A stretch of DNA of 28,280 bases from positions 1 through 28,280 of the IMG/VR virus record IMGVR_UViG_3300037189_013516. One strand, given 5' to 3'. Positions 4,412 to 27,065 of the stretch are shown here, piece by piece. Source of the stretch: a virus. A program made the position numbers and the translations under genes. Numbering within the stretch: the first letter of the stretch is position 1; each line of letters starts with the position of its first letter. Below the pieces are notes generated by a model that saw only the letters and a list, made by a program, of their open reading frames with translations, was not told the origin of the DNA and ran no database searches.

Positions 4412-4824
4412 TGGCATACGGATTAAAACAAATATCACCTTTAGATCTTAAACCTTCAACAGGTATTGGAGTTAAAATACCTTTTCAGGCTGCTAATGTA
4501 TTTACTTCTGTATATACTACAAAGGAACAGATAAAATATAATATAATAAATTATCTATTAACAGACCCTAAAGAAAGACCATTTAATCCTACTTTTGGAG
4601 CTGGATTGAGATCTAGGTTATTTGAACAAATTGATAGACTATCTTTTGAAGATTTAAAACAGTCTATAATGACTCAGATGGAAAATTATTTTCCTCAAAT
4701 ACAAGTAACTCAATTAGAAATAATAGGAAATCCAGATTATAATTCAATTAATATAAAATTTAGTTATAGATTATTAAGATCAAATGAAAATGATTCGGTT
4801 ATCTTGACAATACAAAATATGTAA
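4411..4824 (+). CDS. 25: baseplate wedge subunit, gp25-like
   Basis: This 137-aa protein has the length and pattern of T4 gp25 and type VI secretion TssE. Residues 38-52 form a helix (KEQIKYNIINYLLTD) and residues 53-71 hold the signature block PKERPFNPTFGAGLRSRLF, corresponding to the family's conserved Arg/Pro-FG core. Helix LSFEDLKQSIMTQMENYFP and the C-terminal beta hairpin (INIKFSYRLL ... SVILTI) complete the fold. In contractile tails gp25 sits in the wedge core and helps dock the sheath to the baseplate. It is followed after 2 nt by gp6, the neighbour expected from the T4 wedge. Assignment is secure at family level. Confidence 0.92.
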   Translation: MAYGLKQISPLDLKPSTGIGVKIPFQAANVFTSVYTTKEQIKYNIINYLLTDPKERPFNPTFGAGLRSRLFEQIDRLSFEDLKQSIMTQMENYFPQIQVTQLEIIGNPDYNSINIKFSYRLLRSNENDSVILTIQNM

Positions 4825-8141: not shown

Positions 8142-11100
8142 TGGAATTAGTTAATATAACATACGCAGGGCAGGGAGCAGAGAGTCAAAATTTATCTCCA
8201 TTAGATAGACAATTAGTTACATCCAACTATATTAACACTCAATTTGGTGATACAAATGATTATATAGAATTATATATCTATGATGAAAAGAGTCAGTTAT
8301 TAGATTTTGATTACGACGCTACAGACTATTATCCATATTTAACAGCAAATCCACAAAATAACACCTATTCTAGTCTTACATTAGATCCTGAAAAAGATCT
8401 AAAAAATAGAGGGTATAATAGAGGTAATTTAAATATACAATATCATTTTCATAAAAAATTATTTAATTCTGCTTATGGTAGATTTTATTGGATAAAAGAA
8501 ATATCTACTTCAAGGACAGAATTAAAATTAGCATCTCAAGCAATTAGCAATTCTGAAATTAAAAACGGTTTTAATCAATATCAAGTTTATATTGGTAATA
8601 AAAATTATTATCCTGTATTTTATCTTAATTTAGGCAATAATCAAACTATAATTGCAGATAACGTAGCTTATACTGAAGATGCTGATGGAGGTTACTTATT
8701 AGTAAAATTATATGCTCCACTATCTCCAGAATATGATTTAAAGACACAATTATGGATAGTAGATAAAATAGCTGAGTCTGTTAGTTTTAATGTAAATATC
8801 CAAGTTCAAGCAGAATCAACTCAAGATATAAATTCTTTAAGAGGGCCAAATTATAATGTTGTTGTAAATAGTAAAAATGGACAAACTACTCCATATTACA
8901 ATTACAATAATTTATTATCTAGTCCGGTAACTTCTTCTTATCAAAAATTACTTAGCTATTATCAAGATAAGTCTGTTGATATAAACATTGACTATAGTAA
9001 TTTTAGTAATTTTATACACTTTTCTAGTGCTACAGAAAGAGTAAATAATTTTGTTTACAAATTAGGATTAATAGAATCTTATAATGCTCAATTAGTTGAG
9101 CAATTATCTATAAATGGAGGACCGTCGACTTCTACAATTGCTTCATCATCAATAGGATATATTCAATCTTCTATAAACAATATTATTCAAAATTTTGATA
9201 CTTACGAATACTTTTTATATTTTCAATCTGCATCTTTTGCGTGGCCTAAGTCAACAACCACACAACCATATCAGTTATATTCTGTAACATCTTCTCAAGC
9301 TCTTAGCTTCTTAGGATCCACAAATATAGTACCAAATGCAATAACACAATCTTTATTGTTTTCAGCATCTTATTATGATAGTACTAATAAAGATCTGCTT
9401 CATAATAGTATTCCTCAATATCTTTTAGACGATCCAAATAATGACTCTTATGTTACTTTTTTGGATATGATAGGTCAACACTTTGATAATATTTGGATAT
9501 ATTATAAAGACTTATCTAATAGATATAATGCAACAAATAATCCAGATACAGGAATATCATTAGATGTTGTTTCTGACGCATTAAAGGGATTTGGAATACA
9601 ATTATATACAAACTCAAATGTATCTGATAACCTGTATTATACACTATTTGGTATTAATCCTGACGGCAGTTTACTACCTCCAACAGGATCTGAATTAATA
9701 ACTAATTATGTTACTTCAAGTTTAACAACACTTCCTGCGGCTACTATTCAAGACGAATTATATAAAAGACTTTATCATAACTTACCATATTTACTTAAAA
9801 CAAAAGGAACTCAAAGAGGTGTAAAAGCTTTAATAAGTACTTTTGGTATACCGGAAGAAATTTTAACAGTTAGAGAATTTGGAGGAAGTCCTATAAATGC
9901 TATTGATGGAGTTTTTGATCTTAATACAACTCAGTATAAACTAACTATTTCAACAGGAAGTAATGGAAATGTAAGCGGTAGTTTAGAATTATCATCATCA
10001 CTGCTATCTCCATTTACTACGTTACAATACTACGATAAAGATAATAGAATTAATAGTACAAATATTGAAGTAGGATTTTCTCCAGCAGATACTATTAATA
10101 CAAATATAACTGCTTCATTAGGATATTTTGATATTAATCAATTAATAGGTCATCCTGATGATCAATATTCTTCATCGTACTCTAGTTTAGTTAGCGCTAG
10201 TAATGCATATTTTTCAAACTATACTCAACCTAGTAGTATTTGGGAATATATAAGACTAATTAAATTTTACAATAACTCTTTATTCAAAATGATTAAAGAT
10301 TATGTACCTGCCAGAGCAAATCTTGCTACAGGTATTATTGTAAAATCTCACATGCTAGAAAGAAATAAGTATGCAAGACATGAACCTGATATTAGTTTTA
10401 CTAATAATTATTCACAGTCTATACAAATGGTTAAAGTATCAGGTTCTGAAGGCGGCATGCTATCTGGATCTACTTATTGGAGTTCATTTGTAAACACACC
10501 TTTAGGACCAGCTGCGTACACTAGTTCTCAAGGAATGGAAAGATTTAATGGAGAATTAAGTGGATCAAAAATAGTTGTTACTACAGGTAATGCATTTGAC
10601 GAAACAGAAAATTCAAATAATATCGATCCGTCATTTACAGATCCTATTAGAGTTTCTAGAGGCGCTTTATATCAAAATGTAACTTCTTCTGTTAGATCAA
10701 TTTATCTTTGGGATTTAGATTATAGTACAAATCAACAAACCCCTGTTAACTTAGGAATAATAACTAAGTCAATAAATGATTCTCAGAATGATAATTATAA
10801 TGACTATAATAATCCAAATAGTCCATATGCCCAGGTTCAAGACTATAATTATTTTTTACAAAGATCAATTATTCCTAGATATATAGGATCAAAAACTACT
10901 AGTGCTACTTGGACCACATATACTCCTGGAGATAATTCTTATGGTAAGACTGCCGCTGTTGATAAATTAAAATATCAGTATGCTTATTTAGTAGATATAT
11001 TTTCATCATCATTTCAGCTTCCTAAAAGAGCTAACGCTCAAATTAAATATATTATAGATAACAATCAAAATGTATTAGACTTAACTAAAACTAATACTAA

Positions 11101-12963: not shown

Positions 12964-13998
12964 ATGTCATTCACAAGATTAGACCCAACAGATTTTGTAG
13001 TATCATCCGACGCAGTTGTGGCTCCAGCATGGAGTAACGGAGCTACTGTATTATCTTCATTTTATACAGCTTCTGCAAGTACAACAGGAAGTTATTACAT
13101 AGACATTTATAATGCACCAGTAACTCAAGCAACTTCATCTGTACAATTCTCTATTGCTTATGGCAACTATACAGGTTTAGGATCAGCTCCTTTAAATTCT
13201 TTAGTCCCTGGAAATACTCCTTCTAGAATAACTTTCGGACAGTATAGAAACTTAATTTATGGAGATGCAGAAAGTGCAGTAAACTTTGGAACAGGAAATA
13301 CTTCATCAGTTGATCTAATTGCAATACCAATAGATAGAAATAGGTATAAAGAAAGTCTTTTTCCTGGTACATTTAATCTTAAATTGAGTGACGGTTCTGG
13401 AACTATTTTAAAATTAACAGACAACTCTAATGATGTTACAACTGTAAATTATGTAGATGGAGGTAGAGTTTATGATATCATATCTGGATCTAATGGAACT
13501 TCTGTAAATAGTCCTTTACTATCTGGAGCTAGCGCTAAAGGTTACACAGCATCCGGAAGTTATGGGCTAATGCTTCCTGATCTTGGACTATTAGTTTTAA
13601 ATCCGAAAGCTTTACAATTAGCAACTACTGCTGGTGGTTTAGGTTATACACTTAGCACAGCAAATACTGTAGGAGCTAGTTCTTATAATCATAATTTAAT
13701 ATATCTAGCAATTAGTCAAGGAGCAAATTTCCAATTAAATTCTCAAGAAACAATTTCTTCAGATTATATATTTGTAAGAGTAAAGAATGGAGAATATAAC
13801 TACACAACTAATCCATCATTTATATCTGGTTCGGGAACATTAATATATTCAAACTTTATCAATAGTCCTCAAACATATCCAACAACTGTAGGTATGTATA
13901 ATGATAATAATGAATTAGTAGCTGTAGCTAAACTATCAAAGCCTTTAACAAAAGACTTTACTAAGGAAGCACTTATTCGTGTAAAACTAGATTGGTAA
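12964..13998 (+). CDS. virion structural protein with reusable C-terminal module
   Basis: This 344-aa protein begins SFTRLDPTDFVVSSDAVVAP. Its centre (SVDLIAIPIDRNRYKESLF ... TFNLKLSDGSG) parallels the centre of the next protein (FLAIPRTQFGEQISRKTFKL), so the two share a domain. Residues 270-344 (FVRVKNGEYNYTTNPSF ... YPTTVGMYNDNNELVAVAKL ... IRVKLDW) form a module found again as a stand-alone 101-aa protein at 26760-27065. This pattern occurs in T4-like phage structural proteins near the tail fibres. It ends 5 nt before the first TPS-linker protein. A role as an adaptor or fibre-proximal protein is inferred. Its start follows an A-rich leader. Confidence 0.68.
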   Translation: MSFTRLDPTDFVVSSDAVVAPAWSNGATVLSSFYTASASTTGSYYIDIYNAPVTQATSSVQFSIAYGNYTGLGSAPLNSLVPGNTPSRITFGQYRNLIYGDAESAVNFGTGNTSSVDLIAIPIDRNRYKESLFPGTFNLKLSDGSGTILKLTDNSNDVTTVNYVDGGRVYDIISGSNGTSVNSPLLSGASAKGYTASGSYGLMLPDLGLLVLNPKALQLATTAGGLGYTLSTANTVGASSYNHNLIYLAISQGANFQLNSQETISSDYIFVRVKNGEYNYTTNPSFISGSGTLIYSNFINSPQTYPTTVGMYNDNNELVAVAKLSKPLTKDFTKEALIRVKLDW

Positions 13999-14003
13999 AA
14001 TAA

Positions 14004-15230
14004 ATGAGCAGATCGAAGAATACAATAAAAAAATCAGATGCTTCTTCGACTCCTATAAAAGTAAAGTATTCTAATACCTATGCTAGTCAGTCTTTGTATA
14101 GCAATGGAATAACTACTAATAGGGGTATATATTATACTGCTAATAAAGCAGGAAAACCAGGAAGTACAACATATACAGCAAGAAATAATTATGCTGTAAT
14201 TAGACAGCTGTATTATCAAAATTATTTAACCGGTTCAGTTAGTAATCAATCAGCTTCTTATTGGGATTCTTCTTTACAATCCACAGCAGCTTCAGGAACT
14301 TTAGATGATGATTATAGATATTTTCCTTCTGCTACTGGAAGTAATATAAGTTTTCTAGCGATCCCAAGGACTCAATTTGGTGAACAAATTAGTAGAAAAA
14401 CTTTTAAGTTACTTTCAACAGATGGATTAACTTATAGTATTATTGATGATGGTAATGGAAATATAGTAGACACATTTAATAATAATGTTCACGTAGGAAA
14501 TATTATATATTCTCAAGCTATAGTTACAATAACTAATCCTGATTATGTCGGGATAATATTAAATTTTAATTTTACATTTAATATAAGTGTAGCTACGGGT
14601 CCAAGTCCTACACCTACTCCAACAGTAAGTACTACACCAAATGCTAGTAAAACCCCTACTCCGACTATAACACCAAGTCTGACAAGGACTCCTACTGTAA
14701 CTCCGAGTATAACGATTACAAAAACTGCTAGTCCTTCACCAGGAGCTAGTAAAACACCTACTCCGACTAAAACACCGAGTAAAACAATAACACCTACTGT
14801 AACTTCAACACCTACAGTTACACCTACTATGACCGTGACTCCTAGTCCTTCACCAGATATACAAGCTACTATATATGTTTATGGTTTTAATAATGGAAGT
14901 GGATTTGTTTTAGCAGAAGCAGATAATAATGGAGATATTAAAGATGATATTACTATAACAGGAACTATATCAAGATATAGTGGTACTAATTGTACTACCC
15001 TTTTAGGTGGATGTTCATTTATTGGATCAACGCAACTATTTATTCCTAATGGAACACCAAATGGAACTTTTACAGATACGCTTCCTTTATGTGCCAATGG
15101 AGGAGCTAATAGTTGGAAGCCTACAGCATTAGTTGTAAACGGAACTACTATAACATCTAGTCCTCAAATTGTTACCATAGGTAGTAATGACTATAAAATA
15201 ATAGGTTATAACGTATGTGGAGCATTATAA
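14004..15230 (+). CDS. fibre/adhesin-like protein with Thr/Pro-rich linker
   Basis: This 408-aa protein has three parts. Residues 1-199 are related to the central region of the preceding virion protein (NYAVIRQLYYQNYLTGS; FLAIPRTQFGEQISRKTFKL), which probably anchors it to the particle. Residues 200-285 are a linker of TP, TPT and TPS units (SPTPTPTVSTTP, SPGASKTPTPTKTPSK). Residues 286-408 are a compact Gly/Thr/Asn-rich beta domain with four Cys, ending NVCGAL; this is the likely exposed binding domain. A patch of its linker DNA is 28/30 identical to DNA in the next gene. A mucin-like linker in a cytoplasmically made phage protein beside glycosyltransferase genes makes O-glycosylation a credible inference. 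No signal peptide. Confidence 0.7.
   Translation: MSRSKNTIKKSDASSTPIKVKYSNTYASQSLYSNGITTNRGIYYTANKAGKPGSTTYTARNNYAVIRQLYYQNYLTGSVSNQSASYWDSSLQSTAASGTLDDDYRYFPSATGSNISFLAIPRTQFGEQISRKTFKLLSTDGLTYSIIDDGNGNIVDTFNNNVHVGNIIYSQAIVTITNPDYVGIILNFNFTFNISVATGPSPTPTPTVSTTPNASKTPTPTITPSLTRTPTVTPSITITKTASPSPGASKTPTPTKTPSKTITPTVTSTPTVTPTMTVTPSPSPDIQATIYVYGFNNGSGFVLAEADNNGDIKDDITITGTISRYSGTNCTTLLGGCSFIGSTQLFIPNGTPNGTFTDTLPLCANGGANSWKPTALVVNGTTITSSPQIVTIGSNDYKIIGYNVCGAL
14601..14858 (+). repeat. degenerate TP/TPS-coding linker
   Basis: An in-frame low-complexity tract encodes residues 200-285 of the 408-aa protein, built on act/aca-cct/cca-agt units. Less regular than the array in the next gene. Bases 14730-14759 match 16051-16080 at 28 of 30 positions (the SPGAS interruption), indicating that the two linkers share an origin or recombine. 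Confidence 0.8.
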
Positions 15231-15249: not shown

Positions 15250-18200
15250 ATGGATATAATAATAACATTGGATCCTAATTTTGGTAATGGAGTTGTCGGC
15301 CCATTTGATATATACTATAATAATGGTGGCCTTGATACACTAATAGCTACCGGAGTAACTATAGACGAATTATTAGCTGGATATCCACTAACTGTTCCAG
15401 ATGATACAAATTATGTTAAAGAAGTTGATACTGATCCTTACGATTATGGTAATTTTTCAGTACAATATGTAGTCGCTCCAAGCCCTAGTCCCACTCCAAG
15501 TATAACACCTAGTATATCTATAACACCTAGTTTAACTCCTAGTTTATCGGCTACTCCAAGTATAACACCTAGTATATCTATTAGTAAAACTCCAAGTCGT
15601 ACTCCTAGTATAACTCCAAGTTTAACAGCTACACCTAGTATTACCGCCACACCTAGTTTAACACCTAGTATTACAACTACACCTAGTTTAACAGCTACGC
15701 CAAGCATAACAGCTACACCTAGTTTAACAGCCACACCTAGTATTACAACTACACCTAGTTTAACAGCTACGCCAAGCATAACAGCTACGCCAAGCATAAC
15801 TACAACACCTAGCATAACACCTAGTGTATCTATAACACCTAGCGTAACTATAACACCTAGTATTACTAAAACACCTAGTATTACAGCTACACCTACTTTA
15901 ACAGCTACTCCTAGTTTAACTCCTAGTATTACAGCTACACCTAGCATAACAGCTACACCTAGTATTACAACTACACCTAGTTTAACAGCTACGCCTAGTA
16001 TTACAGCTACGCCTAGTATTACAGCGACACCAAGCATAACAGCTACACCTAGTTCTTCACCAGGAGCTAGTATAACACCTAGTGTATCTATAACACCTAG
16101 TTTAACAGCTACACCTAGTATAACAGCTACCCCTAGTTTAACACCTAGTATAACATCTACTCCTAGTTTAACACCTAGTGTATCTATAACGCCTAGTATA
16201 ACAGCTACCCCCAGTTTAACACCTAGTGTATCTATAACGCCTAGTGTAACTATAACACCTAGTATTACTAAAACGCCTAGTTTAACACCTAGTGTATCTA
16301 TAACGCCTAGTATAACAGCTACCCCTAGTGTATCTATAACACCTAGTTCTTCACCGGCAGCTAGTGTATCACCTAGTATATCTATAACACCTAGTTTAAC
16401 AGCAACGCCTAGTATAACAGCTACCCCTAGTTTAACACCTAGCGTATCTATAACACCTAGCGTAACTATAACACCTAGTATTACTAAAACACCTAGTTTA
16501 ACAGCTACGCCTAGTATAACACCTAGCGTATCTATAACTCCAAGTTTAACAATTACACCTAGTATAACACCAAGTTTAACAATTACACCTAGTATAACAC
16601 CAACAGTAACTCCTAGTATATCTACTCCACCGACTGCGTTTGTTATATCTAATACAGATTTCATAGATTATACAACTGCCTGTCGTGTAGGATCAGCCAA
16701 TAATGGTACTATTTATCAAAGTCCTGTTTACACTATACCTACTACACTACAGCAACTTTATACTAATTTAGGATTATCAACTAATTGGGCTCCTACTATA
16801 GGTTCTAATGGTTGGTTTTTATTTACTAAAGGATCAAGTACTTGGGCAGTACAGGTAAACGTAAATGGTATAATAGTAGACGTTGTTGATTGTACAACTA
16901 TTCCATCGATATCAGCTACTCCTAGTGTCACTCCTAGTATTAGTATAACTCCTAGTTTAACACCTAGTATAACTACAACACCAAGTTTAACAGCTACGCC
17001 TAGTGTTACTAAAACACCATCAGTAACACCTAGTTTAACTAAGACTCCTAGTATAACGATTAGTAGAACTCCATCAGTAACACCTAGTTTAACTAAGACT
17101 CCTAGTATAACAGTTACTAAATCGCCTACTCCTACTCCTAGTATATCTTTGTCTCCTTCTCAATCAGAGCCAACAATATACTCATTCAGTTTAGGATATA
17201 GTTCATCGTCTCCTTATTCTGCGTGTATAGCATCTAGAACAACTTATTATTCATATAGTTCAACTTTTGGAGTAGGAGATACATTATATACTGTGCTTAC
17301 ACATCCTCTATCATCAGCTAATTACGCTCCTATTGGGTATTATTCAGACGGTAGTATATATGGCCAAATAGATGGAAATGGAACTATAACATCAACAGCT
17401 GTATGTCCATCACCAACGCCAACTCCATCTAAGACGCCTAGTGTAACTCCAAGTATTTCAGCGAGTCCTCCAATTGTAACTCCAGCTATAAAAGCTACTA
17501 ATGGAGCTACACCAACATCGGATGCATTTAAACTTCAATATTCTACCGTCGGCGTAAATGGTCCTTGGTCCAGTATGCTTCCTACTGTTAATAACGATAC
17601 TATATGTAGATCAATGACAGGATTATCTGTACCAAGTGGTACATTAGTATATTTTAGACTACTTCATGATGTTACATCAGCACCAGTACAATTTGATTCT
17701 GTTAGTGGTACTACAACATGTCCTGCAAATGGCGGAACATCTTGTTATGCATCTTATGTAATAACTACAGGTACTCAATTAGCATTCACTGCTAACATTG
17801 ATGGATCAGGAAATTATACTGATTGTCCTGTCGCTCCATCACCTACTCCTACTGTAAGTAAAACGCCTAGTATAACTAAGACTCCTAGTATAACTCCATC
17901 ATCTCCTAGATATACTGTAACGGTATATGCTAACCAAGATGTAGCAATAACAAGTCCTACTCCAACAGATTCATGGAAATTCTATTATACTACAGCAGGT
18001 CCTACTGTAACTCAATTAGGTGGATCGCTTAATACCGTAACATGTACTTTATTAGGAACAATTACCGGTTTAAAATACGGAGATACTCTATATTTTGGAG
18101 GTAGTAATTCTTCAGATAATGGAGTATATTACAATTATGGATTGAATTCCAGTTGCGCTGCTGCAGCTACACCAGGATGTGGTAAACCATTTAGTGCTGG

Positions 18201-18315
18201 ACCAGGACTTGGATCTAGCATTACAATAACTGGAAATCTTACTTTATATGTAAGAGCTACAGTAATAGATTTTGGTGCTAAAGGACAGTATTTTGAGTAT
18301 TGCCCAGCTCCTTAA
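15250..18315 (+). CDS. giant mucin-like TPS-repeat fibre/adhesin protein
   Basis: This 1021-aa protein alternates folded domains with Thr/Pro/Ser linkers. Residues 1-76 are an N-terminal domain. Residues 77-461 are a long linker of TPSITA-, TPSLTP- and TPSVSI-like hexapeptides with TPSL tetrapeptides. Domain A (462-550, Cys478/Cys548) and domain B (642-719, Cys659/Cys719) look paralogous, sharing LYT-L-(9-11 residues)-N[WY]AP and a closing Cys. Linkers lie at 551-641, 720-741 and 863-886. Domains C (742-862) and D (887-1021) also pair, both ending near CP-AP. About half of the chain is linker. No signal peptide, so it is made in the cytoplasm and probably displayed on the tail. The linkers lack the Asp of the Bacteroides D-S/T-hydrophobic O-glycosylation motif. 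Immediately downstream lie two GT60-like genes, the main reason to suspect dense O-GlcNAc-type decoration. Confidence 0.75.
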   Translation: MDIIITLDPNFGNGVVGPFDIYYNNGGLDTLIATGVTIDELLAGYPLTVPDDTNYVKEVDTDPYDYGNFSVQYVVAPSPSPTPSITPSISITPSLTPSLSATPSITPSISISKTPSRTPSITPSLTATPSITATPSLTPSITTTPSLTATPSITATPSLTATPSITTTPSLTATPSITATPSITTTPSITPSVSITPSVTITPSITKTPSITATPTLTATPSLTPSITATPSITATPSITTTPSLTATPSITATPSITATPSITATPSSSPGASITPSVSITPSLTATPSITATPSLTPSITSTPSLTPSVSITPSITATPSLTPSVSITPSVTITPSITKTPSLTPSVSITPSITATPSVSITPSSSPAASVSPSISITPSLTATPSITATPSLTPSVSITPSVTITPSITKTPSLTATPSITPSVSITPSLTITPSITPSLTITPSITPTVTPSISTPPTAFVISNTDFIDYTTACRVGSANNGTIYQSPVYTIPTTLQQLYTNLGLSTNWAPTIGSNGWFLFTKGSSTWAVQVNVNGIIVDVVDCTTIPSISATPSVTPSISITPSLTPSITTTPSLTATPSVTKTPSVTPSLTKTPSITISRTPSVTPSLTKTPSITVTKSPTPTPSISLSPSQSEPTIYSFSLGYSSSSPYSACIASRTTYYSYSSTFGVGDTLYTVLTHPLSSANYAPIGYYSDGSIYGQIDGNGTITSTAVCPSPTPTPSKTPSVTPSISASPPIVTPAIKATNGATPTSDAFKLQYSTVGVNGPWSSMLPTVNNDTICRSMTGLSVPSGTLVYFRLLHDVTSAPVQFDSVSGTTTCPANGGTSCYASYVITTGTQLAFTANIDGSGNYTDCPVAPSPTPTVSKTPSITKTPSITPSSPRYTVTVYANQDVAITSPTPTDSWKFYYTTAGPTVTQLGGSLNTVTCTLLGTITGLKYGDTLYFGGSNSSDNGVYYNYGLNSSCAAAATPGCGKPFSAGPGLGSSITITGNLTLYVRATVIDFGAKGQYFEYCPAP
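15661..15788 (+). repeat. 56-nt perfect direct repeat within the TPS array
   Basis: Bases 15661-15716 are identical to 15733-15788 (offset 72 nt, exactly 24 codons), with a mismatch immediately on both sides. This is a recent in-frame tandem duplication or recombination footprint. Confidence 0.9.
15826..16497 (+). repeat. 54-nt perfect dispersed direct repeat within the TPS array
   Basis: Bases 15826-15879 match 16444-16497 over 54 nt, with different flanks. The copies are 618 nt (206 codons) apart. A third, slightly diverged version lies near 16227-16282. Recombination between copies would remove or add about 200 residues in frame. Confidence 0.85.
16900..17172 (+). repeat. second TPS linker (91 codons)
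   Basis: Encodes residues 551-641 between domains A and B of the 1021-aa protein. It holds a near-duplicated unit coding TPSVTPSLTKTPSIT at about 17017-17061 and 17071-17115. Two shorter linkers of the same kind follow at 17407-17472 and 17836-17907. Confidence 0.8.
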
Positions 18316-18357
18316 AATAAATTTTTTTATATCAAATTAATTTAGTATATTTAAGTT

Positions 18358-19614
18358 ATGTCAAAAATTTTTGTTTCGATAGCCTCCTATAGGGACCCTG
18401 AATTACTCCCTACTATAAATAACTTATTAGAGAATTGTGCTAATCCACAAGATTTAACTATTTGTATTGGTTGGCAACATGCAGAACAAGATACTTGGGA
18501 TACTTTAGATTTATATAAAGATGATCCAAGATTTATTATATTAGATATTCCTTATAAAGAAGCTAAAGGAGTTTGCTGGATGAGGTCAGAAATCCAAAAA
18601 AATTATAATGGAGAAAAATATTATTTACAATTAGATTCTCATCATAGATTTAGTAAAGATTGGGATATTACAATAAAGGATTATTTGCACTATTTACAAT
18701 GTAAAGGCCACGAAAAACCTTTATTATCAGCTTATATACCAGGATATTATCCAGATAAAGATCCAAAAGGTAGGGTTAATGAAGTTTGGGGATTGAATAT
18801 AGATAGGTTTATGCCTGGAGGTGCAATATTTTTAGCTCCTCATCACGTAGATAATTGGGAAGATTTAAAAGAACCTTTCCCGTCAAGATTTATCTCTGCA
18901 CATTTTATTTTTACTTTAGGATCGTTTCCTATAGAAGTTCCTTATGATCCTGAATTATATTTTCATGGTGAGGAAAGTTCTTTAGCCGCTAGAGCTTATA
19001 CATTTGGGTATGATCTTTTTTCTCCTCATAAACCTGTAATTTGGCATGAATATACAAGAGAAGGAAAGAAAAAACATTGGGATGATTCAGGAGATTGGAA
19101 ACAAAGAGATGATGCTTCTTATGCAAGATATAGAAAATTAATGGGAATGGATCCAGGTTGTTCTTCATGCACTAGAAGAGCATTAGCTCCAAATTATTTT
19201 GGAACTACAAGATCTTTAGAAGATTTTGAAAAATATGCCGGATTAAAATTTAGTACTAGACAAATTCATGTTGAGACTATACAAAATAATTTTCCTCCAA
19301 TAAAAGGAGATTATGAATCAGGTTTAGCATCAAGAATAAAACATTGTATAGATGTATATAAAGGATCTCTTACTGAATCTGATTATGATTCATTTGCTGT
19401 AGCCTTTTTAGATGAAAATGGTAATGACGTATATAGAAAAGATTGCGATAAAAGTGAAATTATATCTTTATTTAGTCAAGATAAAAATGATCAGTTTATA
19501 CACATATGGAGAGATTACGAAGATAATAAACAACCGTATTCTTGGAGAGTTTGGCCTCATAGTGAATCAAAAGGTTGGTTAGAAAGAATAGATCAAGTTA
19601 TAGAATATGAATAA
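18358..19614 (+). CDS. GT60-like polypeptide GlcNAc-transferase family enzyme (first copy)
   Basis: This 418-aa protein has the hallmarks of the PF11397/GT60 GlcNAc-transferase family. These are the start IFVSIASYRDPELLPTINNL (4-23), LDSHHRF (92-98), where DSH occupies the metal/nucleotide-sugar site, GGAIFLAP (154-161), and YFHGEESSLAARAYTFGYDL (201-220) ending PHKPVIWHEY. Known family members (Dictyostelium Skp1 GlcNAc-transferase, Trypanosoma cruzi mucin GlcNAc-transferases) act on hydroxyproline or Thr of proteins. A CSSC (residues 269-272) might bind metal. The C-terminal 120 residues are an extra domain shared with the next gene. It lies 42 nt after the mucin-like protein, so that protein is the obvious candidate acceptor. 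Sugar donor and acceptor are inferred. Confidence 0.82.
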   Translation: MSKIFVSIASYRDPELLPTINNLLENCANPQDLTICIGWQHAEQDTWDTLDLYKDDPRFIILDIPYKEAKGVCWMRSEIQKNYNGEKYYLQLDSHHRFSKDWDITIKDYLHYLQCKGHEKPLLSAYIPGYYPDKDPKGRVNEVWGLNIDRFMPGGAIFLAPHHVDNWEDLKEPFPSRFISAHFIFTLGSFPIEVPYDPELYFHGEESSLAARAYTFGYDLFSPHKPVIWHEYTREGKKKHWDDSGDWKQRDDASYARYRKLMGMDPGCSSCTRRALAPNYFGTTRSLEDFEKYAGLKFSTRQIHVETIQNNFPPIKGDYESGLASRIKHCIDVYKGSLTESDYDSFAVAFLDENGNDVYRKDCDKSEIISLFSQDKNDQFIHIWRDYEDNKQPYSWRVWPHSESKGWLERIDQVIEYE

Positions 19615-20878
19615 GAAAAAAACAATACTAGTACATTTACCGGCTTACAGAGATCCAGAATTAATTCCTACTATTAAAGACGCATTAGCAAATGCTAAAT
19701 ATCCAAAAAGAATACATTTTGGTATTTGTAGACAATATCATCCTGATGATAAATTTGATGATTTATCTGAATTTGAAGGAGATACTCGATTTAAAATTTA
19801 TGAGTGTTTATATAATGAAGCTCAAGGACTTCCTTGGGCAAGAGCCATTATAAACGAAAAATTATTAACAGATGAAGATTACATTTGTCAATTAGATTCA
19901 CATCATAGATTTGCTAAAGATTGGGATGAGACTTTAATAGATATGCATAGTGGTTTAGAGGCTCGTGGTTACAAACCAATTCTTGCAGCCTATCTACCAT
20001 TATATACACCATTTGATGATCCTGGTGGCCGCACAATGGAGCCGTGGCAACAGCATTTTGCTTGCTTCTATCCTCATGGAACGATATTCATTAGACCAGG
20101 CTTACTTACAGGATGGGAGACTATGACGGAACCTCCAATGAGTAGATTTTTATCAGGGCATTTTTGTTTTGCAAGATCAGAGTGGGCTAAAGAAATAAGA
20201 CACGATCCAGATATCTATTTTTCAGGTGAAGAATTAAATTTAACAGTAAGATCATATACTCATGGGTATGATTTATTTCATCCACATAAATTAGTAGTGT
20301 GGCATTCTACTATGCGTGAAGAAAGATCAGGTATGTTAAAATGGGATGATGATTCTAAATTAGGAGTAGATTGGTGGAATAAACAAGAATATGCTAGAAA
20401 AAAAATAAGAGTTTTATTAGGAACAGAAGAAGATCCAAATATAGACTTAACAGGATATGATTTAGGAACAGTTAGAAGTTTACGAGACTACGAAAAATAC
20501 GCAGGTTTTCATTTTAAAAATAAATCAGTTCAGCAATATACTTTAGATAATAAGTACCCTCCTAATCCTCTTATCAAAGATGACAGTTTATGGGAATTAT
20601 CTTTTACACAATCATTTTATCATTTAGTAAAATTATATAAAACTGATTTTCCTTTTGATGATTATGAATTTATTCATATGGCATTTGATGATGAAGCAGG
20701 TAAACCTATATATGTAAGAAATTTAGAAAAAGATTATATAAAAAGAGTATTAAGTACTGAATCAGGTTATTTTGATTTTGAAGAAATATTTTTAGTAAAT
20801 AAAAAACCATCTAGATTAGTACTATGGGGATATAGTAATGAAAGAGGGTGGTGTGAACGTAAAGAAGAAATAATATAG
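19607..20878 (+). CDS. GT60-like polypeptide GlcNAc-transferase family enzyme (second copy)
   Basis: This 423-aa paralogue of the preceding enzyme overlaps it by 8 nt (ATGAATAA), so the two are translationally coupled. It keeps the same motifs: LPAYRDPELIPTIKDALANA (11-30), LDSHHRFAKDWDETL (96-110), HGTIFIRP, YFSGEELNLTVRSYTHGYDL (204-223) and PHKLVVWH (226-233). It also shares TVRSLRDYEKYAGFHF with TTRSLEDFEKYAGLKF of the first copy, and a similar C-terminal domain. Divergence elsewhere suggests different donor or acceptor preference, for example Thr versus Ser sites, or priming versus a second sugar. All acidic and His motif residues appear intact, so both copies should be active. Confidence 0.82.
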   Translation: MNKKKTILVHLPAYRDPELIPTIKDALANAKYPKRIHFGICRQYHPDDKFDDLSEFEGDTRFKIYECLYNEAQGLPWARAIINEKLLTDEDYICQLDSHHRFAKDWDETLIDMHSGLEARGYKPILAAYLPLYTPFDDPGGRTMEPWQQHFACFYPHGTIFIRPGLLTGWETMTEPPMSRFLSGHFCFARSEWAKEIRHDPDIYFSGEELNLTVRSYTHGYDLFHPHKLVVWHSTMREERSGMLKWDDDSKLGVDWWNKQEYARKKIRVLLGTEEDPNIDLTGYDLGTVRSLRDYEKYAGFHFKNKSVQQYTLDNKYPPNPLIKDDSLWELSFTQSFYHLVKLYKTDFPFDDYEFIHMAFDDEAGKPIYVRNLEKDYIKRVLSTESGYFDFEEIFLVNKKPSRLVLWGYSNERGWCERKEEII

Positions 20879-20881
20879 TAT

Positions 20882-21580
20882 ATGAATAAATTTATTGAAG
20901 TTTTAAAAGCATGTGATAGTTTTAAAAAAAACACTTATTATTGGACTCATGATGTTTTAACTCATGAAGAAAATAGCATTAGAAATTACCCAGCTCCATG
21001 GATAACAAAAACAATTGAACTATTAAAAATAATCGATGCTAAAGTTGTAGTAGAAATTGGATCAACAAGAAGAGAGTTAACTCAATCATGCATTAATTAT
21101 TATAATAATTCTATTAATTTAGAAAGTAAAGATGCACCTCCGTGTTGTCAAGATGGGCATTCAACTTATTTTTGGGCTAGAGAAGGATTTGATGTTTACA
21201 CCGTAGATATTGATGAACATTGTAAAACAGAACTAGAAAAACAATATCAATATCATATAAAAGAACCAATTCCAGATAATTTACATATCTGTATTCCTCA
21301 AGATGGTATTCAATTTTTAAAAGACTTTGATAAAAAAATTGATTTTCTTTTTTTAGATGGCTGGGATAAAGGAACTCATGAATATGCAGAAAGACATTTA
21401 GAAGCTTTTTTAGCTGCTCAAAATAAATTATCAGATTTACATATTATTTCTATTGATGATACTGATTTTAATACAGATAGCGCTGGTAAAGACAAATTAC
21501 TAACTCCTTATTTACTTGAAAATAATTATGTTAAAGTATTATGGGGTAGACAAACTGTCTTTTTAAAAAATCAAATATGA
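20882..21580 (+). CDS. class I SAM-dependent methyltransferase
   Basis: This 232-aa protein shows a Rossmann methyltransferase pattern: motif I KVVVEIGSTRRE (54-65), motif II VYTVDIDEH (105-113) with acidic Asp109/Asp111 to bind the SAM ribose, motif IDFLFLDGWDKGTHEYAERH (153-172), and HIISIDDTDF. The LDGWxxGTHEYxxRHLEAF style resembles Methyltransf_24-type enzymes, which often modify sugars or small molecules. It starts 3 nt after the GT60 pair and overlaps the next gene by 4 nt (ATGA), placing it in the cassette. O-methylation of a sugar on the phage glycan is the likely role (inference). A DNA or protein substrate cannot be excluded; no DNA-MTase NPPY/DPPY motif is seen. Confidence 0.75.
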   Translation: MNKFIEVLKACDSFKKNTYYWTHDVLTHEENSIRNYPAPWITKTIELLKIIDAKVVVEIGSTRRELTQSCINYYNNSINLESKDAPPCCQDGHSTYFWAREGFDVYTVDIDEHCKTELEKQYQYHIKEPIPDNLHICIPQDGIQFLKDFDKKIDFLFLDGWDKGTHEYAERHLEAFLAAQNKLSDLHIISIDDTDFNTDSAGKDKLLTPYLLENNYVKVLWGRQTVFLKNQI

Positions 21581-22593
21581 GTAAATTTATAAGGCAAGTA
21601 TTTGGATCGGTACATTTTAAAACTAGGTTTCTACCATTTATAGAAAATAATAAAGAGACCGCACATAATTATATCTATTTAGTAGATAACTATGAACTAT
21701 ACGAACCTTATAAAAATCTTCTAACTATTATAGATATAGAAGATGCCAGAAAAAATCATCCGTGGAGTACTAATGATATTGAAGTTCATTATAAAGAAAA
21801 AGATCCAGAATTATATGCCAAAAATTTTCATCAATTTTATAAACAAAAAAATAGCCTACTTCCTTTTTGTACGATGAGATTTTTGTTTCCATATATGTAC
21901 GAAAATAATATTTTAAAATTTAGTTATGTAGGAAATAATGTTTTTATAACCAACCAACAAAAAATTATAGATAACTTTTTTAAAAAAATTCCTGAGGGCG
22001 TACTTGGTATTCCTCATATAGGTCCTATGGATGAAACATACTCATCACCGATATTTGGTCATATAGGAAATCTATTAAAAAGTAAATTTCCACAGTTAAC
22101 CATTCCAGAAGATTATTGGTATTGTGAATTATTTACTTGTGATTTTAGTTTTAAAAATAAAGAAGATATAAAATTATTTTACGAAATTTTTGATTATATA
22201 ACTTACTGTTATAATTTTTCTGATAACATACATATTAAAAATCATTTTTTTCAAAAAAATCATGGGTATACTAAAATAGATGATATAGTTGGATACTTAT
22301 TAAGAATTTTTGAAATTAATTTTAATTATAAAATAAAAAATCGTCTTCACTATTGGGAAGATGATACATTAGGATTTCATATGTCAACACCGCATGATTC
22401 ATGGTATTATTCTAATATGCTTCCTAATTGGAATCTTTTACCTCCTAATAAAAATGAAACAGTGTTTACAACTGAAGAATATATCAAAAAGAATAAAGAT
22501 GCTTTAATAAATTATTATAATAATCATGCAACACATGCTACGTATAACATAACAGAAAATAATAATATTATTATTAAACATAAAAATATATAA
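21577..22593 (+). CDS. GT8-like protein lacking the DxD motif (possible inactive partner)
   Basis: This 338-aa protein is a paralogue of the next gene. DIEDARKNHPWS (53-64) corresponds to DIDELRKDYPWS there, and LPFCTMRFLFPYMYEN (95-110) corresponds to IPGSIWRFVFCLPEIE. Where the next protein has CNCDIE, this one has VGNNVFI (118-124), with no acidic pair. If the GT8-like reading is right, metal-dependent transfer should be lost. The protein might be a non-catalytic partner, bind acceptor, or use a different mechanism. The rest is rich in aromatic and Asn/Lys residues, with no membrane segment. It overlaps the methyltransferase by 4 nt. Confidence 0.6.
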   Translation: MSKFIRQVFGSVHFKTRFLPFIENNKETAHNYIYLVDNYELYEPYKNLLTIIDIEDARKNHPWSTNDIEVHYKEKDPELYAKNFHQFYKQKNSLLPFCTMRFLFPYMYENNILKFSYVGNNVFITNQQKIIDNFFKKIPEGVLGIPHIGPMDETYSSPIFGHIGNLLKSKFPQLTIPEDYWYCELFTCDFSFKNKEDIKLFYEIFDYITYCYNFSDNIHIKNHFFQKNHGYTKIDDIVGYLLRIFEINFNYKIKNRLHYWEDDTLGFHMSTPHDSWYYSNMLPNWNLLPPNKNETVFTTEEYIKKNKDALINYYNNHATHATYNITENNNIIIKHKNI

Positions 22594-22609: not shown

Positions 22610-23533
22610 ATGCTTCTAGTATATTATACAATAGGTCCAACATTTAGAAATCGTATAGTTTATAGTATTTTAAAAAATATAGAAAGTTATTCTTTATTTG
22701 ATGTCCTTATTATGACGGATATGAAAGAAGATCCTATATTTAAATCATTAGAAAGTTACAAAAATATAATAATAAAAGATATTGATGAATTAAGAAAGGA
22801 TTATCCGTGGTCTATTGAGTACGAAAAATTACCAATAAAAACATTAAATGAAAAAGAATACGCTACATATGTACTTGAAAAAGATTGGGTAATACCTGGT
22901 TCTATATGGAGATTTGTATTCTGCTTACCAGAAATAGAAAAGTATGATGCTATTTTTGTTTGCAATTGCGATATTGAATGTAAAGCTGATCAGTTAATAT
23001 ATGACTCTATAAAAAATTCTTTCAGTTCTTTAAATAAAGATATGGTAATAGGAAATGGAGGTTATGATTTTACAGATAGATTTGGTGATTTAGCTAATAT
23101 AATTATTAAAGAAAATAATTATCAACAATTAAATCCTAGATTATATTCTAATGATGGCAACTTTTTTTGCTATACTTTTAAAAATAAAAATAATATAAAA
23201 AATTATTTAGATATTTTTAATAATATAGTCTACGAAATATTAGTAAATAACCGTGAAGATTTATTTATTTTAGGCCGTCATGGAATTTGGGCAGTAAATA
23301 ATGAACCCATTCAATCTATAGTTCATTCTATATTAGATATAGATGTAGCATCACTTACCTTTGAAGTAAATAGAGGGTTTTCTATACTAACATTTCCAGA
23401 AGATAGATTTTGGAATTGGTGTCAAGGAGATTTTATTTGTACATTAGAAAGTAAAGAGGAATTTATAAAAATAAATTATGAAAGACTAAAATCTTTTTAT
23501 ATAAGTAGAGGTCAACTTTGGAATTACAATTAA
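22610..23533 (+). CDS. putative GT8-like glycosyltransferase
   Basis: This 307-aa protein begins with a beta strand, LLVYYTIGPTFRNRIVYSIL, followed by FDVLIMTDMKEDP. It contains PGSIWRFVFCLPEIEKYDAI (96-115) and then FVCNCDIEC (116-124). This matches the GT8-type arrangement of an R-containing helix, LPE, YD and a DxD-like metal site, here D121-I-E123. A late HGIW (279-282 region) could provide the family's second metal ligand. It is paralogous to the preceding protein. Substrate unknown; glycan extension on a phage structural protein is inferred from context. The leader is A-rich (AAAAAAATAAATA before ATG), without Shine-Dalgarno. Confidence 0.6.
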   Translation: MLLVYYTIGPTFRNRIVYSILKNIESYSLFDVLIMTDMKEDPIFKSLESYKNIIIKDIDELRKDYPWSIEYEKLPIKTLNEKEYATYVLEKDWVIPGSIWRFVFCLPEIEKYDAIFVCNCDIECKADQLIYDSIKNSFSSLNKDMVIGNGGYDFTDRFGDLANIIIKENNYQQLNPRLYSNDGNFFCYTFKNKNNIKNYLDIFNNIVYEILVNNREDLFILGRHGIWAVNNEPIQSIVHSILDIDVASLTFEVNRGFSILTFPEDRFWNWCQGDFICTLESKEEFIKINYERLKSFYISRGQLWNYN

Positions 23534-23542
23534 TTAAAAAAT

Positions 23543-24355
23543 ATGGCAATAGTAACACTAACAACAATACCTTCAAGGCTTTCAGTATTAGATGATCAAG
23601 GAATAAAATTATGTATTAATTCATTAATTAATCAAAATTATGATGATTATGAAATACATTTTAATATTCCTTATATTAATAATTTAACTAGAGAAGAATA
23701 TATTATTCCTGAATGGTTAGAGGAGTGCAGTAAAATTAAAATTTTTAGAACAGAAGATTTAGGTCCAGCAACTAAATTAATACCAACAGTACAAAGAATA
23801 ACTGATCCTGAAACTATAATAATTGTAGTTGATGATGACCTAGTTTATGATCCTGATATGGTAAAGACTCAAATTGAAAATCAAAATAAATGGCAAGAAG
23901 GTATTGTTGGATATGATGGAATGAGATCTAGAGACGAAAATGGAAATTTTGCATCTAATTTTGGTGATAGTAGAGACTACTATTTCACATCCCAAAAAAT
24001 AAGTATCAGAGTAGATATAATTCAGCATTATAAAACAGTATCATATAAAAGACGTTATTTTGAAGAAGATTTTTTTGATTTTGTAAAAGAGTATTATTCT
24101 TGGGCAGATGATATATTAATGGCAGCTTATTTTTCTAGTAAAAAAAGAGATAGAATAGTTGAAACACACGAATCAATACCTAATTTTCCTACTTTTGATG
24201 ACTGGATAAATGGCGGAGGAGTGTCTACATTTCCTGTATTAAGACATACTCATCACGAATCTTATGAAGGATGTAATATATTTAGACAAACTGAGGTTAG
24301 TGATAATGGAAATAATTTATATAAAATTTTTATAGATCATGGTTATTCAAAATAA
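23543..24355 (+). CDS. GT-A-type glycosyltransferase with DDD motif
   Basis: This 270-aa protein starts AIVTLTTIPSRLSVLDDQGI and continues KLCINSLINQNYDDYEIHFN, the beta-alpha-beta opening of a GT-A/GT2-like fold. LGPATKLIPTV (73-83) and TIIIVVDDDLVYDPDMV (91-107) follow, with Asp97-99 as the DxD metal/nucleotide-sugar site. The SWADDILMAAYF block (about residues 186-197) may supply the catalytic acid or base. Short proteins with 'GPATKL...VDDDxxY' are widespread in polysaccharide gene clusters. It sits 9 nt after the GT8-like gene and 5 nt before the large fusion. The glycan and sugar cannot be determined from sequence. Confidence 0.72.
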   Translation: MAIVTLTTIPSRLSVLDDQGIKLCINSLINQNYDDYEIHFNIPYINNLTREEYIIPEWLEECSKIKIFRTEDLGPATKLIPTVQRITDPETIIIVVDDDLVYDPDMVKTQIENQNKWQEGIVGYDGMRSRDENGNFASNFGDSRDYYFTSQKISIRVDIIQHYKTVSYKRRYFEEDFFDFVKEYYSWADDILMAAYFSSKKRDRIVETHESIPNFPTFDDWINGGGVSTFPVLRHTHHESYEGCNIFRQTEVSDNGNNLYKIFIDHGYSK

Positions 24356-24360
24356 TTTTT

Positions 24361-26745
24361 ATGCAATATAAAGAAACATTTTCTAACATATATGATACAT
24401 TTGGTTTTGGTAGTACTGAAAGTAGATCTGGTCCTGGCAGTACATTAGAAGAAACTAAATTACTTAGAGAAAAAATAAAAGAGTTAGTATTACAAAAAAA
24501 TATTAAATCTGTAGTTGACATTCCGTGCGGAGACTTTCATTGGATGAAAGAAATTGTTTTTAATTTTGAGAGTTACATTGGCGGTGATATAGTAGATAAA
24601 TGTATTCAACAAAATAATGAAAAGTATAATAGTCCAAGAATAAAATTTATTAATTTTGATTTAGTAAAAGACGATATACCAGAATCAGATCTATTAATTG
24701 TCAGAGATATTATAGGACACTTTCCTATTGAAGAAGGAAAAAAAATAGTAGAAAATATTTTAAGATCAAATTGTAAATATCTTTTAAGTACTACATGGGC
24801 TAAAAAAACAGATCAAGGTTGGAGTAGGTGTAATCCTAATGATGTTCATAGAGAAAACGAAGGTGTAGATTTTGGGAGATTTTATCCAGTTAATTTAATG
24901 GCATCTCCATTTAATTTTCCTGATGCTGATGTATATTTAGAGGAAGATGTTAGAGTCGATAATTTTGAAAATGGAAATAGAAAAGTTTTAGCTTTGTGGG
25001 ATATACAAAAAGTTAAAGAATATGTACAAAATTTAAAACCTATTGAATCAAAAAAATCTAATTTAGATTTAACTGTGGTTACTGGTCTTTGGAATATAGG
25101 AAGGCCTAATAGAGATTTTAGTCACTACATAGAAAACTTCAATAAATTTTTAGATATTGATGTTAATATGTTTATCTATATTCCTAAAGAATATGAATAT
25201 TTAGTTTGGCAAAAAAGATCTAAAGAAAATACGTTTGTTAAAGTGTATGAATTAGAAGATGTAAAAAATTTATATGCTCCTTTTTGGGATCAAACACAAA
25301 AAGTAAGAAACAATCCAGATTGGTATAATCAAACAGGCGAAGGAGGTTGGTTAAAAACAAGTCCTCAAGCCTCATTAGAATGGTATAATCCAATAGTTCA
25401 ATCTAAGATGTTTATGCTTAATGATGTTACTATATGGAACCCTTTTGATACTAATCATTTTATTTGGTTAGATGCAGGTATTACTAATAGCGTATATGAA
25501 AAATATTTTACAGATAATAAAGCGTTAGATAAAATACTTCCATACTTAGAATCATTTTTATTTTTAAGTTATCCTTATGACGCAGTAAATGAAATTCATG
25601 GATTTAATTACTCTGCTATTAATGAATATGCTGGAAAAAAAGTTGAACATGTTTGTAGAGGGGGTTTATTTGGTGGTAGAAAAGAAATAATAAATCAAGC
25701 TAATTCTACGTATTATGCTATATTACAAAGATCTTTAGGATCTGGATATATGGGAACTGAAGAGAGTATATTTACTATAATGTCTTACCTAGAACCTAAT
25801 ACATATAGAAGATACGCTTTAGATTACAATGGTTTAATAGTTAAATTTGTTCAAGCTCTATTAGATGATAAAGTAGAGTTAGAAGACATACCACAAAATG
25901 AAATAAAAATTATTAGAAAATACATTGACACAAAAAAATTAAAACTGTCATTGTATATGTTAACATTTAATTTTCCTCATCAATTAGAATATACCATACA
26001 AACATGGCTTAAGCATCCTAAGTGGATAACAGATACTAGAAATATTTTGATAGATAATTCTACTAATGATGAAGCGAGATTAGCTAACGCAGAAATTTGT
26101 AAGAAGTATAATTTTGAACATATCATAACTAATGAAAATACAGGAATAAATGGAGGACGTTTTAGAGCCGCTCAGCACTTCCAAGAATCAGATAGCGATT
26201 ACTATATTTTTTTAGAAGACGATATGGGAATACATGAACCTGTAGATGGATACTGTAGAAACGGTTTTAGAACCCATGTACCAGATTTATATACTAAAGC
26301 ATTAAAAATAATGGAATCTTCGGATATAGATTTTCTTAAGCTGTCTTATACTGAAGTTTACATGGATAATAATATTCAGGTTTCTTGGTACAATGTTCCT
26401 CAATCTATTAGATCAGAATTTTGGCCAACATATGATAAACTACCAATAACAGGTTTAGATCCAGATTCTCCTAGAACTAAATTTGATAAAATAGAAGTTA
26501 TTGATGGATTAAGTTATATTACTGGTGATATATACTACTGTAATTGGCCAACTATAACTAATAAGAAAGGAAATCAAAAAATGTTTTTAGATACTGTATG
26601 GGCAAATCCTTATGAACAAACTTGGATGAGTTATATGTTTCAAGAAACTAAAAAAGGAAATCTTAAACCCGCGATATTATTAGCTAGTCCAATAAATCAT
26701 AATAGAATTGCTCATTATAGTCCTGAAGAAAGACGTGAGAACTAA
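24361..26745 (+). CDS. three-domain fusion: methyltransferase + HtrL/YibB-like + GT2-like glycosyltransferase
   Basis: This 794-aa protein joins three enzyme-like domains. Residues 1-225 look like a SAM methyltransferase: SVVDIPCGDFHWMKE (50-64), YIGGDIVDK (72-80), IVRDIIGHFP (113-122). Residues 235-500 resemble HtrL/YibB-type proteins: LTVVTGLWNIGRPNRDFSHY (237-256), HFIWLDAGI (366-374), RGGLFGG (433-439), GTEESIF (465-471). Residues 528-794 are GT2-like: LSLYMLTFNFPHQLEYTIQT (529-548), ENTGINGGRFRAA (592-604), YIFLEDDM (615-622) with a DxD-like EDD. Fusing methylation and two transferases suggests a processive or capping enzyme that completes and methylates a glycan. No frameshift is seen; the reading frame is continuous. 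It ends just before the TATTTAT word at 26746. Confidence 0.7.
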   Translation: MQYKETFSNIYDTFGFGSTESRSGPGSTLEETKLLREKIKELVLQKNIKSVVDIPCGDFHWMKEIVFNFESYIGGDIVDKCIQQNNEKYNSPRIKFINFDLVKDDIPESDLLIVRDIIGHFPIEEGKKIVENILRSNCKYLLSTTWAKKTDQGWSRCNPNDVHRENEGVDFGRFYPVNLMASPFNFPDADVYLEEDVRVDNFENGNRKVLALWDIQKVKEYVQNLKPIESKKSNLDLTVVTGLWNIGRPNRDFSHYIENFNKFLDIDVNMFIYIPKEYEYLVWQKRSKENTFVKVYELEDVKNLYAPFWDQTQKVRNNPDWYNQTGEGGWLKTSPQASLEWYNPIVQSKMFMLNDVTIWNPFDTNHFIWLDAGITNSVYEKYFTDNKALDKILPYLESFLFLSYPYDAVNEIHGFNYSAINEYAGKKVEHVCRGGLFGGRKEIINQANSTYYAILQRSLGSGYMGTEESIFTIMSYLEPNTYRRYALDYNGLIVKFVQALLDDKVELEDIPQNEIKIIRKYIDTKKLKLSLYMLTFNFPHQLEYTIQTWLKHPKWITDTRNILIDNSTNDEARLANAEICKKYNFEHIITNENTGINGGRFRAAQHFQESDSDYYIFLEDDMGIHEPVDGYCRNGFRTHVPDLYTKALKIMESSDIDFLKLSYTEVYMDNNIQVSWYNVPQSIRSEFWPTYDKLPITGLDPDSPRTKFDKIEVIDGLSYITGDIYYCNWPTITNKKGNQKMFLDTVWANPYEQTWMSYMFQETKKGNLKPAILLASPINHNRIAHYSPEERREN

Positions 26746-26759: not shown

Positions 26760-27065
26760 ATGGCTATTATTCCCTATAAACCTTTTACTGTATCATTCGT
26801 TGCTGAATCTACCATTTATCAAAATGAGATTAGATGTCATGTTGATGAGAATGATTTTAACTACACATTAAATCCTAGCGCAAATAAAGCAGGTACATCA
26901 GGATCTTATATAGACGCAGTAACAGGATCAGACTTTCATCCATACACTACTATGGTTGGATTATATAATGATCAAGATGAACTTTTAGTAGTAGGAAAAT
27001 TATCAAGACCGTATCCCATCCCACAAAATACAGATATGACTTTCATAGTCAGATGGGATAGTTAA
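26760..27065 (+). CDS. stand-alone homologue of a virion protein C-terminal module
   Basis: This 101-aa protein is recognisably the same module as residues 270-344 of the virion protein at 12964-13998. DENDFNYTLNPS corresponds to KNGEYNYTTNPS, TTMVGLYNDQDELLVVGKLS corresponds to TTVGMYNDNNELVAVAKLS, and FIVRWDS corresponds to IRVKLDW. It is therefore probably a small virion or baseplate-associated beta protein, not a cassette enzyme. Its location just after the glycosylation cassette means the cassette and fibre genes are bracketed by two copies of the module. Whether it is a remnant of a longer fibre gene or a complete small protein is open; it has its own start and an intact C-terminus. Confidence 0.72.
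   Translation: MAIIPYKPFTVSFVAESTIYQNEIRCHVDENDFNYTLNPSANKAGTSGSYIDAVTGSDFHPYTTMVGLYNDQDELLVVGKLSRPYPIPQNTDMTFIVRWDS

Follow-up and report, generated by a model that had tools for sequence, protein, structure and literature searches.

Mucins are extended, protease-resistant proteins, and mucin-like O-glycosylation is usually regarded as a eukaryotic trait. The eukaryotic polypeptide GlcNAc-transferases of PF11397/GT60 act on mucins in trypanosomes and on Skp1 in Dictyostelium. The polypeptide GalNAc-transferases (ppGalNAcTs) of GT27 are the enzymes that initiate mucin-type O-glycosylation. Chloroviruses and giant viruses encode an autonomous, host-independent glycosylation of virion proteins (PMC4691112, PMC7019647). 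In mycobacteriophages, virion glycosylation affects the C-termini of capsid and tail-tube subunits (Freeman et al. 2023, as summarised in PMC12619734).

The locus analysed here lies in a viral record of 28,280 bases, the whole of which is referred to as the window. It encodes a fibre-like protein with long tracts rich in T, P and S (TPS tracts), followed by two GT60-type glycosyltransferases, named GT-A and GT-B, and a cassette of additional genes. The phage enzymes share with eukaryotic GT60 enzymes the Pfam family, a predicted GT-A-type fold and a putative polypeptide acceptor. They differ from the eukaryotic enzymes in their phage and bacterial occurrence, their strict association with a YibB-GT2 partner protein and the lack of a secretory pathway. 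The ppGalNAcTs provide the closest solved folds, and the phage acceptor would be a PTS-type mucin tract. The proposed system resembles that of the mycobacteriophages, as summarised in the same source, in being phage-encoded and directed at virion proteins, but it would involve long TPS fibre stalks and GT60 and YibB-GT2 enzymes. Chloroviruses and giant viruses, in contrast, are eukaryotic viruses with other enzyme families. The open-access literature, searched for GT60 in phages, mucin-like phage fibres and related subjects, yielded no description of such a system, and the cassette appears to be a previously undescribed variant of virus-encoded protein glycosylation.

Fibre genes at the tail tip

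The left half of the window is a contractile-tail module, which includes genes for a gp25-like (4411-4824) and a gp6-like (4827-6683) baseplate wedge protein. The baseplate gene order is the same as in Flavobacterium phage immuto and Microcystis phage Mel-JY01. At the tail tip, genes for a 408-aa protein and the 1021-aa TPS protein are followed by a closely packed cassette extending to 26745; all genes, tracts and motifs given below from 14004 onwards are on the + strand. Beyond the cassette lie a small structural gene and then a homing-endonuclease-like gene, as is also the case in relatives. The small gene (26760..27065) encodes a 101-aa protein resembling, by eye, the C-terminus of the 12964-13998 product, and marks the return to the virion module. 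Its equivalent is present at the cassette-free locus L146. A 63-kb record (L170/G051) has the same sequence around the fibre genes as the window.

The 1021-aa fibre-like protein (15250..18315) is the main acceptor candidate. It is built of small globular modules that contain Cys and are linked by TPS tracts, and has no match in Pfam. The original prediction that about half of it is made of TPS repeats is borne out by 83 TPS triplets and by 61% of residues falling inside TPS-rich segments (at least 55% T/P/S). The longest tract (15475..16659) comprises 395 residues, including 110 T, 90 S and 74 P with few charged residues, and three shorter tracts follow at 16876..17226, 17362..17523 and 17800..17937. 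The triplets are encoded by 13 different 9-mers using all four Thr codons; hence, simple repetition of a DNA unit does not account for the array. A 406-aa antisense ORF (15444-16664) was rejected as a repeat artefact. The upstream 408-aa tail protein (14004..15230; PHROG 15511, E 6.5e-14) carries a TP-rich linker at residues 188-294 (nt 14565-14885) and is a probable second acceptor candidate. The unit was originally placed at 15250-20878. The genes therein are as described, but the cassette runs on to 26745 and the TP-rich sequence includes 14004-15230.

Predicted initiating and extending enzymes

GT-A (18358..19614, 418 aa) is the predicted initiating enzyme and its ORF shares an 8-base overlap with that of GT-B (19607..20878, 423 aa). 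The assignment of this coupled pair to PF11397/GT60, first made without database searches, agrees with profile scores of 214.7 bits (E 3.5e-63) and 168 bits (E 5.4e-49), respectively, against a gathering cut-off of 21. Both also match PHROG 24687, annotated as glycosyltransferase (E 1e-146 and 3e-112). D93, H95, W102, D103 and E206 are invariant in 117-119 phage and bacterial homologues, and H230 is nearly so. D93 and H95 form the conserved metal-binding DxH motif of PF11397 (DSH in GT-A, nt 18634-18642). The term GlcNAc in PF11397 is only a Pfam name. GT-A and GT-B are 38% identical and fall into two separate clades of the tree, which indicates an old duplication. The two types of paralogues may differ in site preference.

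The AlphaFold2 model of GT-A (pLDDT 96) shows an alpha/beta domain with a beta domain C-terminal to it. Its 25 best fold matches in the PDB are all ppGalNAcTs, with E from 3.5e-10, so that the predicted fold of GT-A is ppGalNAcT-like. The next matches are TarS, GlfT2 and SpsA, all with other acceptors. With a TM of about 0.5 and an identity of 11-16%, the likeness to ppGalNAcTs is at the superfamily level. By sequence, the enzymes fall outside GT27, as no ppGalNAcT was found in a profile search of PDB chains and Pfam assigns PF11397 only. Neither a PDB sequence search with GT-A nor PDB searches with GT60 and YibB profiles recovered relatives, and no solved structure of the GT60 family was found.

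The cassette continues with a methyltransferase-like protein (20882..21580), which scores below the cut-off for Methyltransf_24 (22.4 versus 26.3 bits, E 2.3e-4) and has homologues in 7 of 77 GT60-positive loci. A role in glycan methylation is possible. The following proteins of 338 aa (21577..22593; no match in Pfam, NCBIfam or PHROG) and 307 aa (22610..23533; no match in Pfam or PHROG) have homologues in four and eight GT60-positive loci, respectively, and are suspected from their position to be glycosyltransferases. A GT2-family glycosyltransferase (23543..24355; PF00535, E 7e-8) with homologues in 15 GT60-positive loci precedes the last cassette gene (24361..26745). This gene encodes a 794-aa protein with methyltransferase, HtrL_YibB and GT2 parts, predicted to be a tandem glycan-extending enzyme. 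It matches PHROG 3382 (methyltransferase, E 3.7e-34) and HtrL_YibB (PF09612, E 2.8e-12; 47.2 bits against a cut-off of 24.1). YibB is its sole NCBIfam name, with a score below the equivalog cut-off of TIGR02192 (49.5 versus 264.9). The best fold matches of its model (pLDDT 87.9) include proteins with two glycosyltransferase domains, namely LH3, chondroitin polymerase (K4CP), LARGE1 and COLGALT1. These are multi-domain glycosyltransferases as well, but with whole-chain TM values of 0.2-0.3 and no sequence match the likeness is one of architecture only.

Proteins of the YibB-GT2 type are the commonest neighbours of viral GT60 (57 members in 77 loci). HtrL_YibB was found in all 18 GT60-positive records and in none of 28 GT60-negative records, 13 of which have TPS arrays. 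The domain is also present at 71 of 90 GT60 loci versus 0 of 148 control loci. Other genes at viral GT60 loci encode carbamoyltransferases (22 loci), FkbM methyltransferases, GT25, GT34, GT10 and GDP-mannose dehydratase.

Linkage of GT60 to TPS tracts in phages and bacteria

At least 585 relatives of GT60 occur in viral contigs. A TPS-rich ORF lies within 10 kb of GT60 in 47 of the 80 loci examined, and 24 out of 72 non-redundant loci have a TPS ORF whose end is no more than 400 bp upstream of it. In L025-L027, TPS genes are located between the two GT60s. A control set was formed by loci of two neighbouring structural proteins, picked regardless of GT60 or TPS. Among the 96 of these syntenic tail modules whose sequence extends 3 kb or more downstream, eight carry both, 16 TPS only, none GT60 only and 72 neither (p 5.5e-6; as the records share ancestry, the co-occurrence p-values overstate independence and serve as guides only). 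One locus counted as TPS only (L100) would have a GT60 1-2 kb beyond the point where its TPS arrays stop, provided that the contig is circular, and the other heavy TPS-only loci are fragments of 21-45 kb. The original prediction proposed a survey of co-occurrence in other phage genomes. In records of at least 80 kb, with a few long records from a close-relative terminase scan added as extra controls, TP-repeat arrays were found in 18 of 19 GT60-positive and 0 of 19 GT60-negative records. The isolates Xanthomonas phage XacN1 and Stenotrophomonas phage RAS14 carry GT60, YibB and TP arrays, and in both of them GT60 and the TP-linker gene lie apart. All three features are missing from immuto and Mel-JY01.

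Sampling by TPS first recovered GT60 in 11 of 38 records versus 1 of 35 reversed-pattern controls, which were not size-matched (p 0.003). Among the 13 TPS-selected records that reach 100 kb, five lack GT60, and L146 similarly has TPS without GT60. Hence, the presence of GT60 predicts TPS, but TPS does not require GT60, which is therefore dispensable for some TPS stalks. One record with GT60 and YibB (G069/L060) has no TP array in 114 kb. Two GT60-positive records without TP arrays, L650 (TPTTGTQTTTGETQ) and L657 (TGTTTGSTTGS), have Thr-rich, proline-poor tracts instead, which hints at Thr as the acceptor.

Relatives of GT60 are also found in contigs assigned to several bacterial phyla, and bacterial and phage sequences are intermixed in the tree, where at least six switches are well supported. 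Some bacterial MAG contigs with GT60 may themselves be phage. At five bacterial loci (Acidobacteria, Myxococcota), GT60 is fused in a single chain to YibB-GT2. Three gammaproteobacterial loci have GT60 inside a long ORF, which at L304 encodes hydroxyproline arabinosyltransferase (HPAT), GT60 and 2-oxoglutarate/Fe(II) oxygenase domains in a Pfam scan. Similar N-termini and length suggest that L308 and L291 encode the HPAT fusion as well. ORFs with a Tat-like signal and a P/T/S tail number 12 within 1.5 kb of bacterial GT60s versus five farther away, among 3.4 times as many ORFs and apparently spurious (p 3.6e-5, partly post hoc because the Tat criterion was loosened after several examples had been seen). 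L263, one of the 12, has a true P/T/S tail and an unconvincing Tat signal. A TPS gene is adjacent to 8 of 51 bacterial GT60s, a rough count since simple gene calling misses TPS genes in GC-rich genomes. In Jiulongibacter sediminis, a Tat-like protein with a P/T/S tail has a GT60 on either side, and a carbamoyltransferase and a methyltransferase-YibB-GT2 protein come next. Both the fusions and the P/T/S neighbours occur in unrelated settings and suggest that the acceptor is a polypeptide. The Tat pathway exports proteins already finished in the cytoplasm, so Tat-exported neighbours fit cytoplasmic glycosylation.

Acceptors and competing explanations

The genes, their domains, the conserved linkage and the fusions make it likely that the cassette is a phage-encoded system for the cytoplasmic O-glycosylation of tail fibres. 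GT-A and GT-B would attach a sugar to Thr, and perhaps Ser, within the TPS tracts of both tail proteins (1021 aa and 408 aa). The sugar is probably an N-acetylhexosamine supplied by a UDP donor. Transfer would occur in the host cytoplasm ahead of virion assembly. The YibB-GT2 tandem enzyme and the GT2 protein, perhaps with the 338-aa and 307-aa proteins, would then extend the glycan, and methyltransferases, in relatives also carbamoyltransferases, would complete it. This would yield extended, brush-like stalks that bear receptor-binding modules and, by analogy with mucins, are likely protease-resistant. The original prediction that phage enzymes glycosylate the stalks is favoured by PF11397 membership, the predicted ppGalNAcT-like fold, adjacency, co-occurrence and the bacterial fusions. 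Its account stopped at the initiation step because the extending enzymes, above all YibB-GT2, were missed. Stiffness, protease resistance and effects on lectins, the benefits it suggested, would be possible consequences.

The YibB gene of E. coli lies in an LPS-related region, and the weaker fold matches of GT-A include TarS and GlfT2. Both would suit a cassette that alters the LPS or capsule on the surface of the infected host, for instance to block superinfection or re-adsorption, with the TPS stalk as a bystander; glycosyltransferase clusters of jumbo phages have been so interpreted (PMC7824862). This explanation is unlikely, given the co-occurrence of GT60 with TPS genes, often directly upstream of it, the bacterial GT60s beside Tat-signal P/T/S proteins, the fusion of one GT60 to HPAT and a 2OG oxygenase, two domains for which polypeptide substrates would be expected, and the ppGalNAcTs as the closest predicted fold. 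A purely genomic association is conceivable too, since TPS tracts and GT60 are both patchy, both situated in the variable tip region and found in related phage lineages, and could simply ride the same mobile, variable receptor-binding cassette. The same pairing with unrelated P/T/S proteins in bacterial contigs of several phyla, and its occurrence without adjacency in XacN1 and RAS14, leave this with little probability, slightly less than that of the hydroxyproline acceptor considered below.

Two alternatives concern the acceptor. The Skp1 Hyp-GlcNAc transferase is among the characterised GT60 enzymes and one bacterium encodes the HPAT-GT60-2OG oxygenase fusion, as would be expected if the fibre were glycosylated at hydroxyproline of its TP tracts rather than at Thr or Ser. 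However, the window shows no recognisable prolyl hydroxylase, and the Thr-rich tracts of L650 and L657 have little proline, which makes a Skp1-like modification very unlikely. Phages with hypermodified DNA are known to encode glycosyltransferases (Pyle et al. 2024, as summarised in PMC12619734), and the enzymes could act on modified bases in phage DNA. The genes are located within the tail-fibre module and not among replication genes, the window has no recognisable DNA-modification gene, and bacterial contigs show GT60-YibB fusions and Tat/TPS adjacency; a DNA acceptor is therefore the least credible of these explanations.

With glycosylation of the fibre protein as the preferred explanation, the recurrence of the cassette in many phages and the bacterial fusions point to a widespread protein-glycosylation system. 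We lean slightly towards a broader proposal, in which GT60 and YibB-GT2 constitute a previously undescribed cytoplasmic mucin-like O-glycosylation common to phages and bacteria. Such a system would coat Thr/Pro/Ser stalks, in phages on fibres yet to be assembled and in bacteria on surface proteins yet to be exported by Tat. It may represent in prokaryotes what mucin and Skp1 glycosylation are in eukaryotes. If true, a compact mucin-like system in many environmental phages would add to the known systems of protein modification, and its enzymes could be tested for making mucin-like proteins in bacteria. TPS stalks, a puzzling feature of phage fibres, would receive an explanation, and the finding is also relevant to the display of receptor-binding domains by large phages.

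Repeat stalks and GT60 genes in phages

The phage locus L146 (6300-11433) carries the same tail module as the window, with more than 1000 residues of Thr-Pro-Ser (TPS) repeats, and the glycosyltransferase cassette is absent from this module; the fibre gene, a small structural gene and a GIY-YIG-like gene follow one another directly. In some phages encoding GT60 (PF11397-type) glycosyltransferases, TPS arrays are replaced by S/T/A- or T/G-rich repeats (L022:145-9946; L650; L657). Microcystis phage Mel-JY01 (L008), a syntenic phage without GT60, has a gene (1075-1674) whose annotation reads prolyl 4-hydroxylase. A 406-aa antisense ORF with LGV-type repeats (window 15444-16664, minus strand) was rejected as a gene and represents an artefact of the TPS array.

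Bacterial GT60 fusions and neighbours

Single-chain fusions of GT60 with the tandem glycosyltransferase YibB-GT2 are encoded in the bacterial loci L313 (6551-10141), L261 (17-3649), L262 (9995-12904), L273 (3652-6897) and L277 (2756-6019). Some of these five contain an extra inserted segment, which is methyltransferase-like in L313. Proteins with a Tat-like signal and a P/T/S tail recur next to bacterial GT60 genes in several phyla, lying within 1.5 kb in L248, L249, L253, L262, L264, L269, L273, L277, L291, L304 and L313. Two Chitinophaga genomes (L278, L312, about 8650-9960) present another kind of GT60 context: the gene immediately upstream seems to encode a Cys-rich peptide-modifying protein, possibly of the radical-SAM type.

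Possible hydroxyproline glycosylation in bacteria

Long gammaproteobacterial proteins combine hydroxyproline arabinosyltransferase (HPAT), GT60 and 2OG-Fe(II) oxygenase domains, a set confirmed by Pfam in L304 (2615-6127) and putative in L308 (4379-7981) and L291 (742-4452). Small P/T/S-rich proteins are encoded near these genes. This domain set and its neighbours suggest that hydroxyproline glycosylation occurs in bacteria.
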